The position numbers and the translations under genes were made by a program. A stretch of 42,531 nucleotides of DNA from Cystobacterineae bacterium (GTDB lineage: Bacteria; Myxococcota; Myxococcia; Myxococcales; Myxococcaceae): NCBI GenBank assembly GCA_009782175.1, contig WRKR01000024.1, positions 1 through 42,531 on the forward strand, written 5' to 3'. This document shows positions 24,734-35,899 of the stretch, piece by piece; the stretch's first letter is position 1, and every line of letters starts with the position of its first letter. The notes beneath the pieces are model-generated. The model did no database searches. It saw only the letters and a list, made by a program, of their open reading frames with translations, and was not told the DNA's origin.

Positions 24734-26839
24734 CTAAATTAAAAGCTCAAAATCCTCACTCTTCCACCCCAGGGACTCCAGTGAAAACTCCTCTTTCTCA
24801 TCCATGCGCTCTTCCATGAGGTGGCTGAGCAATTCGAGCACCTGAGGGTGTGTAGAGATTAAGGTGTTGAATTCATTGGCAGGAAGTTTAAGCAAAGCGC
24901 TTCGCTCCACAGCAATAACGCTGGCTGTGGCTGGTGCTTTGGTTAAGAGGGAAATTTCACCAAACAACTCCCCCTCTTTCAGGACGGCCACTTTTTGGCC
25001 ATTTTTAATAACCTCCAAATAGCCGACGAGGACGACGAACAAACCCTCGCTCATCTGGTTTTGGGCCACCACCACCGTCCCGGGGTTGACATCCAAGGCT
25101 TGAAAACAACGGATCAACTCTTGGCGATCGGCCTGAGCAAAAGGCCTGAACAGCAAGGAGCTGGCCATGACGTTGCTGAGCAACCGTTGTCGACAAAACC
25201 GCCACAGTGCCGTAGAAACTTGCGGAAATTTTCGAGAAAGCCCGGCAAGCACGTCTGCGGAAATTTCTAAAACTTGCGTGTCAGGCTCAACCGCTTCAAC
25301 AAAAGCCGAGCGCGGCTCCCCTGACAGCAAAGCCATTTCACCAAAAAACTCACCTTCCCTGAGGATGGCCAACTCCACTTGCTCAGCGCCCTGTACGCGG
25401 AATACGCGGACTTCCCCGGAGCAAATGACAAAGAAAGAATTCCCCTGCTCCCCTTGGCGGATGACGCGTGTTTGAGGTGCAAGCCTCCAAAGCGGGCAAT
25501 GGTTAAACAAAGCCATGAGCGCAGGTTGGGGCAAATCCGAAAAAAGCGGAATATTTAAGGGCAAACCCGCAGAGCGTGTTGCATGTTTGGCCACCGCCAA
25601 CCAAGCGTTCGGGTTTTCTCCTTGCTCCTCCAGACCGGCCTTCGCTGCATCTTCAATGGCATGAAAAGCACCCAAGCTTGGAGAGCGACGCTCTTTGGCC
25701 AAAGGGGGTTGCCTCACAACATCCGTCTGTTGGAGGTGGCCTGGTTGGGCATGGCCTTGTTGGAGAGGGCCTTGTTGGGCATGGCCCCTCATTTGTGGGG
25801 CACTCAAGGGTTCCTCTGTACTCTCCAACGCTGTGTCTTCCAAGTCAAAAACAGGTATGGCCTCGGTGGGCTCGCTTTTTTTCTGAGGCTTGTTTTTATG
25901 CAAAGCAGAGGAAGTTTTGGAAACAGAGGAAGCAGGGGAAACACCCGGGCTGCTCAACAAAACAGGCACAAGCGTCGGGCGGATGCTGGGGGGCTTCATG
26001 GTTTCAGCCCATGAGACAGAGGCGTGCTGTGCAGCCATTTCAGGTGCCTGAGGTGTTTTTTGAAAGCAAGCTTCAGCGGAGGAGGTTTCTTGTTGAGCTT
26101 TGGCCACTGGAGTGCTCAACGCTTTGGTTTGAGGTGAAGGCGGCTCAATGAGTGTACCCACAACAATGGGAATTTTCGCTTCTGAGTCTTCCTTCACATG
26201 CTCTGGAGAGCGCTCCTCTTGCCTGATAACAAGGGGTATTTCAACCTCCACAGAAAGCTCAGCAGATGGCAATGCCTCAAAAGCTTTGCTCGCAGGTGCC
26301 ATGGGCGCAGGAGCTATGGGCGCAGGAGCTATGGGGGGCGCAGGTGCCATGGGCGCAGGTGCTATGGGTGCAGGTACTATGGGCGTTGGAGAAGGCACTG
26401 TTTGTGCCGCTGCAGGCATGGGCTCTGTTGCAAAACCAGGCTTTGCTGCAGGCTCGGCCTTCTGGCTTGAAGGCTTGGGCTCCGGTGCAAGGGCCATGGA
26501 GGGAAAACTTGCTTTTTTCACAATGCCCTTGTGTACATAAAGCTCTTCCAGCATGCTCTTCACACCCAAATGTTCAGGCTCTATTTCCAAAACAAGTTTG
26601 CACGCGGCAATGGCACGGGGGAAAAAACCACTCTCCGCATATGAGTTGGCTGCCTGGTAATAAGCAGCTGTCGCTTTGTCTTTCTTTCGCAAACGCGACC
26701 AAGCATCGCCCAGACGAATCCACGCTTGGGAGTCTTTGGGTGCTTGCGCGCAATAACTCTCATAAATTTCCGCAGCCTTTGCAAATTTTCCCTTTGCAAA
26801 CGCAGACGCAGCTCGCTCGCGCAGCTCGCTTAAATCCAT
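24734..26839 (-). CDS. TPR protein with two cyclic-nucleotide-binding domains
   Basis: This is a protein of about 701 residues. The N-terminus (about 1-105) holds TPR-like helices (FAKGKFAKAAEIYESYC, SQAWIRLGDAWSRLRKKDKA). A Pro/Ala-rich linker of about 320 residues includes APIAPAPMAP repeats encoded by 15-bp tandem repeats near 26290-26390. Two cyclic-nucleotide-binding folds end the protein, each with the phosphate-binding cassette pattern GEFFGEMALLSGEPRSA and GELFGEISLLTKAPATA. The first has the Arg expected to contact the phosphate; the second has Thr-Ala there, so it may not bind nucleotide. The role is probably a cAMP- or cGMP-responsive scaffold. The start could instead be a TTG at 26860 that overlaps the upstream stop. 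Confidence 0.85.
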   Translation of the reverse strand: MDLSELRERAASAFAKGKFAKAAEIYESYCAQAPKDSQAWIRLGDAWSRLRKKDKATAAYYQAANSYAESGFFPRAIAACKLVLEIEPEHLGVKSMLEELYVHKGIVKKASFPSMALAPEPKPSSQKAEPAAKPGFATEPMPAAAQTVPSPTPIVPAPIAPAPMAPAPPIAPAPIAPAPMAPASKAFEALPSAELSVEVEIPLVIRQEERSPEHVKEDSEAKIPIVVGTLIEPPSPQTKALSTPVAKAQQETSSAEACFQKTPQAPEMAAQHASVSWAETMKPPSIRPTLVPVLLSSPGVSPASSVSKTSSALHKNKPQKKSEPTEAIPVFDLEDTALESTEEPLSAPQMRGHAQQGPLQQGHAQPGHLQQTDVVRQPPLAKERRSPSLGAFHAIEDAAKAGLEEQGENPNAWLAVAKHATRSAGLPLNIPLFSDLPQPALMALFNHCPLWRLAPQTRVIRQGEQGNSFFVICSGEVRVFRVQGAEQVELAILREGEFFGEMALLSGEPRSAFVEAVEPDTQVLEISADVLAGLSRKFPQVSTALWRFCRQRLLSNVMASSLLFRPFAQADRQELIRCFQALDVNPGTVVVAQNQMSEGLFVVLVGYLEVIKNGQKVAVLKEGELFGEISLLTKAPATASVIAVERSALLKLPANEFNTLISTHPQVLELLSHLMEERMDEKEEFSLESLGWKSEDFELLI

Positions 26840-26856
26840 GACTTCAACTTTCTCAT

Positions 26857-28938
26857 TCAAATATCGCTCATGCTATGACGAACTTTTTTAAAATAATCCT
26901 CACCCAGAGCTTCCAACATCTCCCCCGCGTCTCCAACCTTTAAATAACGCAAAACCCTCACTGCTGCCTGGCGGATTTCTGGAGATTCATGAAAAAGCTG
27001 GTTTTCAATCTCCTTGGATGCCACCTTGGCGTCCATCTCCTTAAGTGCTTCTAAGGCTGTCTTCTTTTCAACCACTGTCGCCGCGTTAAGCAGCGCCACC
27101 AGCTTCTCCTGTGCTCCTGTATGCTTGGCCTTCCCCAAGCAATGCGCAGCCAAACTGGCCTCTCGAATGCTTTTGTCCAAAAAACCCATCAAAATTTTCG
27201 CACTTTTTTCATCCAGCTGTGTGCAGGGCAAGAGGTTTAATAACGCTGAGCTTTCTTCTGCCCGCTTTTCCAAAGCGGCAAGCAGATGTTTTTCTCCTTC
27301 AATACCTGCTTCTATAAAAGCCTCGGCCACAGCCAGGCGAACTTTTTCGCTTTGGTCGAAAATACCTTGCTCTGCCAACTCCCAATGCTCTGCCCCCATG
27401 CGCACCCATGCGGCCAAAGCCACCGCCCGCAAAGAAACATCCGAGGCCCTCATGTGGCGCTTCAAATGCTCCTCTATGAGTTGCGGCTGCAAAAAACTCG
27501 CAAGCTTTAAAAATGCAGCCAACTGCTCCAACTCTGCCTGGCCCAAATTTTCTGCCAACTCCGGAAGCAACAAGGGCCTTGAAGCTTGTTTCCCCTGCTC
27601 TTTAAGCGACAGGGCGTTGCTTGCCTCAAGCCCCCTCAGCAACAACTCCTGGCGTTGTCTGCGCTCTAAATCCTTGGCACCCTCTTCAAAAATGCGCGTA
27701 CCAAACCCATCCTCCAGGGGAAATTTTATCCAAGGCTCTTCTCTCTTTGTTAAAAAATCCACCCGCTCCAATATATAGGCCATGTGCTTGGGGGGCTTCT
27801 CTTGCAGCTCCTTTTGCACATAAGCTTTTGAAAGCAAATGCGCAGCCAAAGCCGACAAAACAAGGTTTTCGGATTTTAGGAATGCCCAAATTTTATCAGC
27901 CTCCTGGCTCCAGGCGTTTGGCCAACGCATCAAAACCAACAAAGCTGTTTCTGCCATAGAGGCTTTGGAGAGCTGCTCCAACAAAGGCGGCAAAGCGCAA
28001 GGCGCTCTTTGTTGCAATGCGGAGGCTGCTTGAAGACGCAAAAAGCGGTTTTCAGAATGGATGGCAATATGACACATGGCTTGGTCTGCTTCGGGCGATG
28101 AAGGAAAGCTTGTCAGCCCCTCCAGTGCCCACAAGGCTGTCTCTTCTTCCGTTTCCACCAAGCGAGTCAGCAACGGAATGGAGCTTGTGGCTTGCAATTG
28201 GGCAACAGCCGCAATAGCGGCTTGGCGAATGTCAGCGTTGCTGCTCAATGCCAAAGCTTCCAGCTCCACCAATGCCGCGTGCACGCCCAGGGAAGCCAAG
28301 CCCTGAGCGGCAGCAACAACCAATACGGGCGCCTTCTCTTTCAGAAAGGGAAGCAACAATTCGGCGGCCTCAGGGCGACCACTCTCGGACAGCCGAACAA
28401 TGGCATTCACCTGCTCTGCAAGCGAAGGAGGTGAAGCCAACTCTTGCTGAGCTTTCTCCCACAACTCTTTGGCTTCAAAACTCACCGCTTGCTTCATCGG
28501 CTCTGCAACACCGGAGGCCTTCAGCGCTTGGACAATGGCCTGGCGCACGGGTTGGCGGCTTCTGGAAAAACGCAACAGCAAATATTTGCGCGCCTTCTCG
28601 TTGCCGTGTTGGCCCATGGCATGGGCCGCAGCCACTTGGACTCTCTCATCAGCATCCTTCAGCAGATCGCTCAGCAAGTCCAAAGCATAACCCTCCCGGC
28701 TTTTCCCAAGCCCCTCAGCAGCAACCGCGCGGACTTTGGGCTCTGTGTCTCTGGCTGCCAGCGCCAAATGCCCCAAGTCAGCTGGCTTCACCTTCTCAAT
28801 TATTTGCTTTAAAGCTTCAGCACGTGCCTCCGGAGGGAAATGGCTCCAGTTGGCTTTCCATGCTTCATCCTTCTTCTCGTTGCAAGCTGACAACAGCGAC
28901 AACACCGACAACACCGACAATATATGAATCCATCGCAT
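26857..28938 (-). CDS. HEAT-repeat lipoprotein
   Basis: A protein of about 693 residues. Its lipoprotein signal, starting MRWIHILSVLSVLSLLSAC, is partly encoded by 9-bp tandem repeats. The rest is a long array of HEAT-like helix pairs, clearest in the first third (EPKVRAVAAEGLGKSREG, DERVQVAAAHAMGQHGNEKAR) and repeated to the C-terminus. This is a probable periplasmic or surface-bound scaffold that binds protein partners. HEAT repeats here resemble the PBS-lyase type. The ATG at 28938 is chosen because it gives a normal lipoprotein signal. The gene's end meets the start of the TPR/cyclic-nucleotide-binding gene, so translation is probably coupled. The partner protein is unknown. Confidence 0.8.
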   Translation of the reverse strand: MRWIHILSVLSVLSLLSACNEKKDEAWKANWSHFPPEARAEALKQIIEKVKPADLGHLALAARDTEPKVRAVAAEGLGKSREGYALDLLSDLLKDADERVQVAAAHAMGQHGNEKARKYLLLRFSRSRQPVRQAIVQALKASGVAEPMKQAVSFEAKELWEKAQQELASPPSLAEQVNAIVRLSESGRPEAAELLLPFLKEKAPVLVVAAAQGLASLGVHAALVELEALALSSNADIRQAAIAAVAQLQATSSIPLLTRLVETEEETALWALEGLTSFPSSPEADQAMCHIAIHSENRFLRLQAASALQQRAPCALPPLLEQLSKASMAETALLVLMRWPNAWSQEADKIWAFLKSENLVLSALAAHLLSKAYVQKELQEKPPKHMAYILERVDFLTKREEPWIKFPLEDGFGTRIFEEGAKDLERRQRQELLLRGLEASNALSLKEQGKQASRPLLLPELAENLGQAELEQLAAFLKLASFLQPQLIEEHLKRHMRASDVSLRAVALAAWVRMGAEHWELAEQGIFDQSEKVRLAVAEAFIEAGIEGEKHLLAALEKRAEESSALLNLLPCTQLDEKSAKILMGFLDKSIREASLAAHCLGKAKHTGAQEKLVALLNAATVVEKKTALEALKEMDAKVASKEIENQLFHESPEIRQAAVRVLRYLKVGDAGEMLEALGEDYFKKVRHSMSDI
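28888..28921. repeat. 9-bp tandem repeat in a signal-peptide coding region
   Basis: About four copies of a GACAACACC-like unit encode the repeated Val-Leu-Ser part of the HEAT lipoprotein signal peptide. Copy-number change would alter signal length in frame, by three residues per unit. Confidence 0.6.
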
Positions 28939-28983
28939 GGGAACGTATATATACTGTCCTGGCCTCATTCCTGGCTTCATTCT

Positions 28984-31655: not shown

Positions 31656-34019
31656 TCAAAAAACGCCCCACAGGTGCAGCAACAAGGCCACAACCGCGCC
31701 TAAAATAACTCCCCCCAAAAAAACCCTCAAGGCGCCGCCTGTGCTGTGCGTTTGTTTCAACATGCCACCTGGACCCTCGCCGGAAACAGCCCAGTCCTCT
31801 ATGGGCGTCACCTCAGGAGCTTCGGACCATAGCTCCCTTAGCTCCCTGTTCGAAAATTTCATGGCACGTTCTGCACATTCTGCACGCTCGGCTTGCATGC
31901 GCTTGGTTTCTGCGCGCTTGAGCTCTTTTAGCGAAAGCTCGGCCCCCAGTTGAGACTTCTCTTGGGCCCACGCCGGAAACAGCTCCTTCATCCAATCTGC
32001 CATTTGTGAAGCATCCATCCCAAGCCCATTCTCAAGGAGGTGCGCTTCAATGGCCGTTTGGAAAGCCTTTGCGTCTGCATAGCGCTCTTCGGGGTTTTTG
32101 GCCAAGGCGCACATGATTAAGTCGTCTAAATGCGGGCTGACATCGGCCATCTCTGAGGGTTTGGGGGCCTTCTCCTTCGCTATGGCCTCCAAGGTAGCAA
32201 ACTCGGTTTTCCGCTTGAAAGGGCTTATGCCTGTCAGCAACTCATATAAAACCACTCCCAAAGAAAAAATGTCTGAGCGCAGATCTAAATAGGGGCCCGA
32301 GTTGTGGCCTTGGACTTGCTTGGGTTTCAGCAACTCCGGCGACACATAAGGAAGCCCTTCCTTCATGCGCTGATGCTGTTCGAACTCCTTCCAATAATCA
32401 ATGAATGGTGCCCACGCAATGCCAACGCCAGCCAGCTTGACAGAGCCGTCAAAGCTGATCCATATGTTCCATGGAGAAATGTGGTGGTGGATGAGCCCCA
32501 TGGGGTTTCCTTCCCCATTTTTCCAGGTGTGGATATGATGGAGGCCTGCACAAACATCCGCCACAACCCTCAAGGCCACCGCAGGAGGCACCCTGCGCTT
32601 CAACTCCAAACAGCGCTGCATGACACGCTTCAAGTCTTGGCCGTGAATGTGTTCTGTGGCCACAAAACCTTCGCCGTCGCACACTCCCAAGCCGAGAATT
32701 TGAACAATGTTGGGGTGAGACAACTCAGAGGCCAAACGCGCTTGAGTAAAGAATTCCTCACAAAATGTTGCAAGATGTTCGTGTCCGTATTCCACAAAGC
32801 TGGGTGAAATCCGCCTGATGACAACTTTCCGAGAGCCCCCTTCACCTGGCTGCTCTGCAAGCCATGCTTCGTAGGCTATTTGTTCCGCTTCAATTCTTTG
32901 GATGAGGCGGTAGTTGCCAAATTCCACGACTGCCCCCGCGTCTCGCTTCGCTTTTTCCATGGCCTCCACATTTTCTGGAGGGGCAGAGGTTTTGGGGAAG
33001 CGGCGCGCCTCTTCTTGAGAAAGCTCGGCCCCCAGTTGAGACTTCTCCTGGGCCCACGCCGGAAACAGCTCCTTCATCCAATCTGCCATTTGTGAAGCAT
33101 CCATCCCAAGCCCATTCTCAAGGAGGTGCGCTTCAATGGCCGTTTGGAAAGCCTGTGCGTCTGCATAGCGCTCTTCGGGGTTTTTGGCCAAGGCGCACAT
33201 GATTAAGTCGTCTAAATGCGGGCTGACATCGGCCACCTCTGAGGGTTTGGGGGGTTCCTCAAGAACCACTGCATTTAGGCTTTCCGGAGCGCTATCTCGC
33301 TTGAAAGGGCTCACGGCTGTCAGCAACTCATATAAAACCACTCCCAAAGAAAAAATGTCTACACCGGGGCTCAAGCTGTGGCATCGGACTTGCTCCGGCG
33401 ACACATAAGGAAACCTTTCCTTCATGCGCTGATGCTGTTCGAACTCCTTCCAATAATCAACGAATGGTGCCCACGCAATGCCCAAGCCAGCCAGCTTCAC
33501 AGCGCCGTCAAAGCTGATCCATATGTTCCATGGAGAAATGTGGTGGTGGATGAGCCCCATGGGGTTTCCTTCCCCATTTTTCCAGGTGTGGATATGATGG
33601 AGGCCTGCACAAACATCCGCCACAACCCTCAAGGCCACCGCAGGAGGCACCCTGCGCTTCAACTCCAAACAGCGCTGCATGACACGCTTCAAGTCTTGGC
33701 CGTGAATGTGTTCTGTGGCCACAAAACCTTCGCCGTCGCACACTCCCAAGCCGAGAATTTGAACAATGTTGGGGTGAGACAACTCAGAGGCCAAACGCGC
33801 TTGAGTAAAGAATTCCTCACAAAATGTTGCAAGATGTTCGTGTCCGTATTCCACAAAGCTGGGTGAAATCCGCCTGATGACAACTTTCCGAGAGCCCCCT
33901 TCACCTGGCTGCTCTGCAAGCCATGCTTCGTAGGCTATTTGTTCCGCTTCAATTCTTTGGATGAGGCGGTAGTTGCCAAATTCCACGACTGCCCCCGCGT
34001 CTCGCTTCGCTTTTTCCAT
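31656..34019 (-). CDS. Double pseudokinase membrane protein
   Basis: The protein has 787 residues with two near-identical kinase-fold domains (about 14-345 and 367-705) and a C-terminal membrane helix (about 762-782). Myxobacterial kinases read HRDVSPQN and DFG; here both domains read HHHISPWN and AGLG or AGVG, and the ATP-anchoring Lys is Arg (VVIR). The Gly-rich loop is absent. The structural blocks VSPE and DIFSLGVVLYELLT survive, so the fold is kept while phosphotransfer should be lost. The copies differ mainly around the activation segment, where the second has nine extra residues. ATG 34019 is preceded by GGAGGCC; the same sequence recurs before the second copy at 32960, so internal initiation is possible. 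Confidence 0.85.
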   Translation of the reverse strand: MEKAKRDAGAVVEFGNYRLIQRIEAEQIAYEAWLAEQPGEGGSRKVVIRRISPSFVEYGHEHLATFCEEFFTQARLASELSHPNIVQILGLGVCDGEGFVATEHIHGQDLKRVMQRCLELKRRVPPAVALRVVADVCAGLHHIHTWKNGEGNPMGLIHHHISPWNIWISFDGAVKLAGLGIAWAPFVDYWKEFEQHQRMKERFPYVSPEQVRCHSLSPGVDIFSLGVVLYELLTAVSPFKRDSAPESLNAVVLEEPPKPSEVADVSPHLDDLIMCALAKNPEERYADAQAFQTAIEAHLLENGLGMDASQMADWMKELFPAWAQEKSQLGAELSQEEARRFPKTSAPPENVEAMEKAKRDAGAVVEFGNYRLIQRIEAEQIAYEAWLAEQPGEGGSRKVVIRRISPSFVEYGHEHLATFCEEFFTQARLASELSHPNIVQILGLGVCDGEGFVATEHIHGQDLKRVMQRCLELKRRVPPAVALRVVADVCAGLHHIHTWKNGEGNPMGLIHHHISPWNIWISFDGSVKLAGVGIAWAPFIDYWKEFEQHQRMKEGLPYVSPELLKPKQVQGHNSGPYLDLRSDIFSLGVVLYELLTGISPFKRKTEFATLEAIAKEKAPKPSEMADVSPHLDDLIMCALAKNPEERYADAKAFQTAIEAHLLENGLGMDASQMADWMKELFPAWAQEKSQLGAELSLKELKRAETKRMQAERAECAERAMKFSNRELRELWSEAPEVTPIEDWAVSGEGPGGMLKQTHSTGGALRVFLGGVILGAVVALLLHLWGVF
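31935..34019. repeat. In-gene tandem duplication, 1059-bp period
   Basis: Sequence upstream of the activation segment is nearly identical between copies and offset by exactly 1059 bp (start codons at 34019 and 32960). Downstream the offset grows to 1086 bp because of a 27-bp insertion in the second copy. The middle part has diverged, and in copy 2 it resembles the neighbouring gene at 34154. Confidence 0.95.
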
Positions 34020-34153
34020 GGCCTCCACAGCTAGCAAAAAAACCGCTTCTATGACGGGCAAATGCGCCCTTCACCTCATTTGTGGGCACTCTGAAGGCAT
34101 GTTCCACCCCGCACCTTGCGCCATGGCTTTGTGGGCATTGCAGGGGTTAAGCC

Positions 34154-35899
34154 TCATGGGCTTGGGGCCAGCAAATGCTCCACGTCAACCGTTATTAAGC
34201 TTGTCTCTTCTCCGGGCTTCACCTCTGCTCTGAAGGGAACGGGCTCCTTGAGGGCTTTGCCGCGGAGCTCAAGCTCATAAACCCCCTCATAGAAGGGGAT
34301 GGGATAATCCACCACGGCAAAAAGCTTGGGGCTGCCTTTGAGGAATATTTCAACCCCAGCCACATTTTGGGGGTGCGTGACTATTCTCAGTTGGCCCTTT
34401 TCAAAGTTTTTTTGCAATGCAAAAACCTCGCCTTCGGCCAGCATGGGCAGCTGCACCTCATAGCGTATTTGGCTGAGCTCATTAACAAGCAAAAGCTTTT
34501 CTCCGGCCACAACGCCGCGGCGGTTTTTAAAAGGCGTGGCTCCAACAAAAACACGTTTTTTCCCCTCCTCGCGCAAAGCAAAAACCTGAGTGGGCGGCGT
34601 GGTTGAAATGCTTAAACCTATGGCTATGCCGGGAGGCAAAGGCTCCCTGGGCCCCCAAAAAGCAAGTGACAAAACCAGCAGAAGCACCGCCACAACAAGG
34701 CCTCCCACCCCCCATTTTGCCCAGCTGCGCCTGCCGCTGCTGGGCTCTGCAGCGGCTTTGTTGTTGACGGGCGTCAGCTCCAAAACTGTTTCTTCCTGCT
34801 CTGCCAAGGCCCTTGCCTTTTTTTGTGCCCGCTTTGCTGCATGCTTTGGGGTTTGCTTTGGGGCCTCTCTGGGTTTCCGGTTTTGTTTTAAGCGTGCTGG
34901 CACCGCGGGAAGCTCCTCCGTGGTGTCGTCTTTCCGCTGTATAGAGGCATGGGCCTCTTGCGCATCCGGAAACAACTCTTCCATTAACTCTGCAATGTGC
35001 ACAGGGTCGCCCCTGCCTCCCTGGGCCAGGAGGCATTGCTCAATGGCTGCTTGGAAAGCCTGTGCGTCTGCATAGCGCTCTTCGGGGTTTTTGGCCAAGG
35101 CCTGCATAAGCAAGGCATCCAACTTTGGGCTTATTTCTGCCACCTCTGAGGGTTTGAGGGCCTCCTCCTTTAATATGGCCTCCAAGGTAGCAAACTCGGT
35201 GTCCCGCTTGAAGGGGTGCACGGCTGTCAGCAACTCATATAAAACCACCCCCAAAGAGAAAATGTCCGAGTGCGGAGCCCATAGGCCTTGAATGTGCTCC
35301 GGAGACATACGGGAGAGTTGCTCATTGGACGCAGCAATGCCTTTGGCACTGTCTGGGTTGCTGTAGCGTGGCGCCTGCGCAATACCCACACCCGCCAGCT
35401 TTATGGAGCCGTCAAAGCCAAGCCATATATGCTGCACGCCCATGGGGTTGAGGCGAAACTCCAAGGGGTGTCCTTCTGTGTCCTCCAGGGTGTGCATATA
35501 ATGGAGGGCTGAGCAAAGCTCGGCAGCAATGCTCAACGCCACCTCAGAAGAAACCCAGCGCTCCAACTCTAAAGAGCGCTGCATAACACGGCCCAAGTGG
35601 GCGCCGTGTATATATTCCATGGCCACAAAATATTCCCCCTCGCACTCACCTGCCTCATAAATTTGAGCAATGTTGGGGTGGGAGAGCTGCGAGGCCAGAC
35701 GCGCTGGCCATAAAACCTGCTCCTCGACGAATATGGAAGCAGATTGGCTGTCCTCATTTTGCATGAAGCTTGGCAAAATGCGTTGAAGGAGGACTTGCGA
35801 AGAAAAGCCTTCTGTTTCTGCTTCTGCTTCTGCAAGCCAAAGCTCTGCAAGCTCATCTGTTGAAATTTTTTGAATAAGGCGATAGTTGCCAATGTGCAC
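34154..35899 (-). CDS. Pseudokinase membrane protein with PEGA-like outer domain
   Basis: This protein has 581 residues. Residues 5-295 have a kinase fold (HPNIAQIYEAGECEGEYFVAMEYIHG, MSPEHI, SDIFSLGVVLYELLT), but the HRD motif is FRL (148-150), DFG is AGV (169-171) and the ATP Lys is Gln (VLLQ). A basic linker (about 335-365) precedes a membrane helix (396-416). The outer part contains PPTQVFALREEGKKRVFVG and TPFKNRRGVVAGEKL, a PEGA-like beta domain common in myxobacterial kinases. The GTG start has GGAGG seven bases upstream. It lies 134 bp before the double pseudokinase gene on the same strand, and the two probably interact or share ligands. Confidence 0.85.
   Translation of the reverse strand: MHIGNYRLIQKISTDELAELWLAEAEAETEGFSSQVLLQRILPSFMQNEDSQSASIFVEEQVLWPARLASQLSHPNIAQIYEAGECEGEYFVAMEYIHGAHLGRVMQRSLELERWVSSEVALSIAAELCSALHYMHTLEDTEGHPLEFRLNPMGVQHIWLGFDGSIKLAGVGIAQAPRYSNPDSAKGIAASNEQLSRMSPEHIQGLWAPHSDIFSLGVVLYELLTAVHPFKRDTEFATLEAILKEEALKPSEVAEISPKLDALLMQALAKNPEERYADAQAFQAAIEQCLLAQGGRGDPVHIAELMEELFPDAQEAHASIQRKDDTTEELPAVPARLKQNRKPREAPKQTPKHAAKRAQKKARALAEQEETVLELTPVNNKAAAEPSSGRRSWAKWGVGGLVVAVLLLVLSLAFWGPREPLPPGIAIGLSISTTPPTQVFALREEGKKRVFVGATPFKNRRGVVAGEKLLLVNELSQIRYEVQLPMLAEGEVFALQKNFEKGQLRIVTHPQNVAGVEIFLKGSPKLFAVVDYPIPFYEGVYELELRGKALKEPVPFRAEVKPGEETSLITVDVEHLLAPSP

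Follow-up and report, generated by a model that had tools for sequence, protein, structure and literature searches.

Can a receptor kinase give up phosphotransfer altogether and still be kept as a protein? The question is raised by two adjacent minus-strand open frames, here called P1 and P2, in a Cystobacterineae DNA stretch of 42,531 nucleotides (the window), which makes up an entire contig of a genome assembly (G000) 2.7 Mb in size and 99.95% complete. Between them, P1 and P2 encode three kinase-fold domains (Table 1). The earlier note on this DNA had described the pair as an array of dead kinase domains in two membrane proteins. Both frames lie where that note had placed them, and Pfam Pkinase (PF00069) matched them far above chance, with E values of 8.8e-47 for P1 (in two stretches) and 2.6e-18 for P2. 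The predicted membrane helices were also recovered, hydropathy giving a single strong hydrophobic helix in each protein. The description of the starts as good holds for P2 but not for P1, the start of which is ambiguous. P1 has lost the outer domain that P2 possesses, and its membrane helix is close to the very end of the protein. Elsewhere in the window (24734-28980), two overlapping neighbour genes encode a TPR protein, in which two stretches are cyclic-nucleotide-binding, and a HEAT-repeat protein; the genes are syntenic in the congeners.

Table 1. Positions of P1, P2 and their parts in the window.
Feature	Position	Strand	Description
P2 gene	34154..35899	-	581 aa; dead kinase domain, linker, membrane helix, outer domain
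P2 start			GTG, with GGAGG upstream
P2 pseudokinase domain	34949..35893	-	VLLQ, LNP, GVG
P2 catalytic-loop equivalent LNPMGVQH	35429..35452	-	HRDxxxxN lost
P2 DFG equivalent GVG(IA)	35378..35392	-	
P2 membrane helix	34652..34708	-	residues 398-416
P2 outer domain	34157..34630	-	conserved with live orthologues; not a Pfam PEGA match
P1 gene	31656..34061	-	801 aa; two tandem dead kinase domains, tail, C-terminal membrane helix
P1 start	34061 or 34019		ambiguous: TTG (34061) or ATG (34019)
P1 pseudokinase domain 1	33027..33980	-	VVIR, HHH..SPWN, GLG
P1 pseudokinase domain 2	31941..32921	-	VVIR, HHH..SPWN, GVG
526-bp exact repeat unit	33504..34029	-	second copy 1059 bp further on (tandem copy)
P1 membrane helix	31677..31733	-	residues 777-795

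Both proteins have the Hanks-type (PknB-like) kinase fold, as judged from the Pfam hits and from PknB matches in the PDB (E about 1e-18). Fold modelling, which the earlier note had proposed, agreed with this assignment: AlphaFold2 produced confident kinase folds for P1 domain 1 (mean pLDDT 87) and for the kinase part of P2 (mostly around or above 90), and the top PDB matches of both models were M. tuberculosis PknB. The activation segment, linker and outer domain of P2 were modelled poorly, the outer domain having no relatives in the alignment used.

Alignment to live orthologues revealed that the three residues characteristic of an active Hanks-type kinase are absent from every domain. In P1 domain 1, P1 domain 2 and P2, respectively, the equivalents of VAIK are VVIR, VVIR and VLLQ, those of HRD are HHH, HHH and LNP, and those of DFG are GLG, GVG and GVG. 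The ATP lysine is therefore replaced by Arg, Arg and Gln, exactly as originally read, the HRD aspartate by His, His and Pro, and the DFG aspartate by Gly in all three. The reported loss of both aspartates thus stands, as does the HHH of P1, but the P2 HRD equivalent is LNP rather than FRL, and the original AGL/AGV reading of the DFG site began one residue too early. The glycine-rich loop ATGGMAEV has become EAEQIA-EA in both P1 domains and STDELAEL in P2, leaving zero glycines. The catalytic-loop Asn is present in P1 (SPWN) and is a His in P2. An HMM alignment retains the alpha-C Glu of P2 solely if an insertion directly follows it; read without gaps, the position is Pro. In none of the three domains did the alignment show a WNK-like relocated Lys in the glycine-rich loop or a relocated Asp beside the HRD or DFG positions; the alternative catalytic residues that the earlier note had named as evidence against dead kinases are not in place. 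With Lys, both Asp and the glycine-rich loop lost from every domain, there is no evident site for a nucleotide or a metal, and judging from these residues the domains should neither bind Mg-ATP nor carry out canonical phosphate transfer. The parts that remain are the C-lobe and, in P2, the outer domain; the ATP site and the catalytic residues are gone, as is a large part of the activation segment.

The origin of the two genes could be read from comparison with two congeneric genomes (G001 and G002). The P1–P2 pair, which the earlier note had suggested looking for in related genomes, does not recur there. Each congener instead carries, at the syntenic place (DUF167 / kinase / MoeB / SDR / pseudouridine synthase), one kinase-TM-sensor gene in which VVVK, HRD and DFG are all intact and which encodes the same outer domain; the G002 copy is divided by contig ends. 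P2 shares with this live orthologue the gene place and the domain order, at about 45-53% identity. Where the congeners have a single, catalytically intact copy, G000 has two genes whose three domains all lack the catalytic residues. A live copy is missing from G000: the next best match there is 36% identical, in a genome that is 99.95% complete. Neighbouring proteins are 57-90% identical among the three genomes versus about 44-53% for the kinase gene, and the G000 gene has changed faster than all its neighbours.

The live form of this gene prevails throughout the family. Matches were found in 58/58 family genomes sampled, and in most of these one orthologue stood out clearly, at 37-44% identity. 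HRD and DFG were intact in all 49 orthologues inspected (the two congeners included), and the VAIK Lys is an invariant column across the 46 live orthologues aligned; the homologues are thus intact live kinases, and the breakage by stops that the earlier note had held would count against its reading is not seen. Of about 96 family genomes searched, 86 have the outer domain once, and outside the family it is almost absent; that of P2 is 52-60% identical to those of live orthologues within the genus. Its description as PEGA-like could not be upheld. Pfam PEGA (PF08308) gave no match to the outer domain of P2 at E values up to 10, nor to that of G001, and the E of 0.12 obtained with one orthologue corresponds to 12.7 bits against a cut-off of 20.8; on these Pfam results the assignment is rejected.

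The three dead domains form one clade beside the kinase of the congeners (support 100/98). All three have in common V-to-A and D-to-G changes at the DFG site and a new catalytic-loop Trp, while an F-to-V change at the DFG site is found in P1 domain 2 and P2 only. Because P1 and P2 belong to one clade with a common DFG change, the DFG aspartate was most likely lost before the duplication, and the common change contradicts independent loss in each domain. The remaining catalytic losses differ between P1 and P2. The two domains of P1 are a later tandem copy with 93% nucleotide identity, 526 bp being exactly identical. They show no change over the first 155 codons and differ strongly in codons 198-242, where domain 2 is closer to P2 (nucleotide identity up to 0.88) than domain 1 is (0.73). 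This C-lobe mosaic suggests that conversion or exchange has taken place between dead domains. P1 domain 2 and P2 seem to have swapped part of this lobe, and recombination appears to have homogenised the array in part. Since the DFG loss is common with P2 and the P1 domains are near-identical copies, the losses cannot be counted as three separate events. The argument for selection that the earlier note had drawn from coordinated loss is accordingly weak: part of the loss goes back to a single dead ancestor, and two of the three domains are recent duplicates.

Evidence on selection comes from the distribution of losses and from codon changes. Each site invariant in the 46 live orthologues was assigned, from textbook knowledge of kinase function, to one of three classes (catalytic, activation segment or other), an assignment made after the alignment had been seen. 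Nine of the 14 catalytic sites were lost in all three domains versus 9 of 90 other sites (p = 2e-5), and 33 of the 37 C-lobe sites in this invariant set survive in one or more of the dead domains. A purpose-written codon model was applied to five close sequences on one tree, despite the signs of C-lobe exchange between P1 domain 2 and P2; its ratios are approximate because dS is high (about 0.9-1.2, reaching 2.5 in the outer domain). In this model, dN/dS was 0.11 on live branches and 0.56 on dead branches, a value of 1 being rejected for the latter (2 delta lnL 15.5). It was 0.43 for the P2 kinase domain, again with 1 rejected (2 delta lnL 12.2), and 0.70 for the P1 stem, where 1 was not rejected. 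Partition into N-lobe and C-lobe gave no sharper result. The P2 outer domain compared with those of the congeners gave 0.14-0.17, with synonymous sites near saturation, a constraint at least as strong as that between the two live ones (0.30). When neutral change was simulated at 0.1 substitutions per site, which is less than the branch lengths fitted by the codon model, the P1 frame stayed open in 0/400 runs and the P2 frame in 0.5%. The dN/dS of its kinase and outer domains, the site pattern and the open-frame simulation together identify P2 as a maintained protein. P1 is probably maintained as well; the statistics alone are insufficient here, and it is the open 801-codon frame and the kept fold residues that argue for its function. 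The earlier preference for selected pseudokinases over decay is thus borne out for P2 and for the dead set as a whole but not for P1 taken alone, the ratio of which is inseparable from 1.

These data bear directly on a rival account in which P1 and P2 are pseudogenes left by genome reduction, with frames open by chance. The 2.7-Mb genome, against mostly 5-13 Mb in the family, would suit such an account, as would the accelerated change relative to all neighbours, the missing outer domain of P1 and its dN/dS not different from 1. Decay does not readily explain 1382 open codons across two frames, a gene that was duplicated twice and not shortened, or losses that cluster at catalytic sites and mostly spare the other invariant ones. 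It is at odds, too, with the rejection of a dN/dS of 1 for P2 and for the whole dead set and with the strong constraint on the outer domain. We regard decay of P2 as unlikely, and decay of the locus as a whole as having a small chance of being correct. A division of fates, with P2 a working pseudo-receptor and P1 a non-functional or merely tolerated copy, deserves somewhat more credit, given that selection is evident in both P2 domains and, by dN/dS alone, not in P1. It is still improbable in our judgement, in view of the 801-codon frame of P1, its kept fold residues and membrane helix and its homogenised tandem domains.

Two further accounts concern the chemistry and the reality of the array. 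Kinase folds in other bacteria do perform other reactions (AMPylation by SelO and polyglutamylation by SidJ; cited in PMC8141879), and P1 keeps the catalytic-loop Asn; with Lys, both metal/base Asp and the glycine-rich loop gone from every domain, however, such a switch of chemistry in P1 or P2 is the least credible of the alternatives. An assembly artefact, whereby the tandem copy in P1 would be spurious and the true locus would hold two dead domains and not three, is scarcely more plausible. The 526-bp exact repeat does exceed short-read length, but assemblers usually collapse such copies and do not create them, the flanks of the two copies differ, and the copies themselves diverge by up to 27% in one 75-nt window downstream.

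We therefore favour, as the probable though by no means certain reading, the conversion of a receptor into a non-phosphorylating membrane sensor or scaffold with a truncated partner. The ancestor of P1 and P2 was an active receptor-type Ser/Thr kinase of a kind near-universal in the family, with a cytoplasmic kinase domain, a linker, one membrane helix and an outer sensor-like domain. In the line of the G000 species the DFG aspartate was most likely lost first, followed by gene duplication and then by further catalytic losses; P1 shed its outer domain as well, and a tandem duplication of its kinase domain came later. Both proteins keep the kinase scaffold, the C-lobe above all. P2 most likely still senses an outside signal and may pass it on, as a conformational or binding signal through its dead kinase domain, to a partner, for which a live kinase, a substrate or P1 itself are candidates. 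P1, with no sensor, could act as a two-headed membrane docking platform or as a competitor for the partners of P2. A relay based on binding, or competition for the partners of live kinases, would fit best, in whichever direction the effect runs. The membrane scaffold or sensor that the earlier note had proposed is consistent with this anatomy, the sensing and scaffold roles and the partners being putative. A more specific proposal is that the receptor was converted in place, within one genus, into a purely binding-based system comprising a sensing dead P2 and a tandem, sensorless dead P1, their surfaces kept matched by recombination. We put this forward tentatively and think it rather doubtful; if true, nature would here have run the experiment of swapping a phosphorylating receptor for one without catalysis.

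Among known systems, P2 resembles the PknB-type PASTA receptor kinases in that a domain of kinase fold precedes a single membrane helix and an outer domain. P1 and P2 differ from these in the absence of a PASTA match and of catalytic residues, and NCBIfam PknB_PASTA scored them at 289 and 131 bits against a cut-off of 450. In mycobacteria, the membrane-linked pseudokinase MviN recruits FhaA once phosphorylated by PknB. This pair may serve as a functional analogy for P1 and P2, the dead kinase domain at the membrane providing a docking surface. Fully degraded bacterial pseudokinases with all three motifs lost or divergent have been described as the families ActPs1, ActPs2, ActPs3, GLW and CP1, and GLW members have a TM region after the kinase domain (PMC12599244). 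Constraint patterns specific to each family mark ActPs1-3 and CP1, as they do the DYD and DLHK families of the same source. P1 and P2 do not carry the GLW signature (HRD to GLW, Leu/Trp at the beta3 Lys), having HHH/LNP and Arg/Gln at these positions. The fully degraded families are broad and conserved, several of them actinobacterial (PMC12599244), whereas P1 and P2 evolved from a live receptor inside a single genus.

Bacterial pseudokinases are thus already known, mostly as old families remote from any live ancestor, and P1/P2 is a new and unusually clean case with a clear live-to-dead history. With a live orthologue in the same position in two congeners, and in dozens of relatives too, the parts that the receptor retained after losing phosphotransfer are directly readable. 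Live and dead versions at one chromosomal place can be directly compared, at least one dead domain being still under selection. A further lesson is that a species possessing about 20 intact kinases can give up catalysis in a gene otherwise kept live across its family.

G000 contains other dead kinases besides its intact ones. One is a membrane pseudokinase in which HRD has become HKN and DFG has become NFG, both Asp being replaced by Asn (L020/L179, G000:C40:8553-9704; L181 in G001; L180 in G002), with 69-71% identity across the three congeneric genomes. Like P1 and P2, it is membrane-anchored and lacks the HRD and DFG aspartates, but it keeps the Lys, lies at another locus and occurs in all three genomes. 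A heavily degraded kinase-like protein (L027, G000:C10:48162-49499; FQE, IMN) has no orthologue in the two congeners, and its open frame holds a CCFNR-like simple repeat upstream of the likely start. All three congeners encode a protein (L023/L243/L266) that begins with a zinc-ribbon-like segment and whose kinase domain carries HLN and DVG; the C-terminus of L023 looks like a formylglycine-enzyme domain. The HKN/NFG, HLN/DVG and L027 proteins indicate that pseudokinases are recurrent in G000, as in M. xanthus, for which 11/99 kinases were reported as pseudokinases (PMC6791715). Two further observations concern kinase-like genes. A large insert separates the N- and C-lobe matches within one open frame in L014/L025 (G000:C25:27174-28289), L237 (G001) and L262/L268 (G002), and G002 encodes a further degraded kinase-like protein with HGA and GYG (L267, G002:C103:385-1005).
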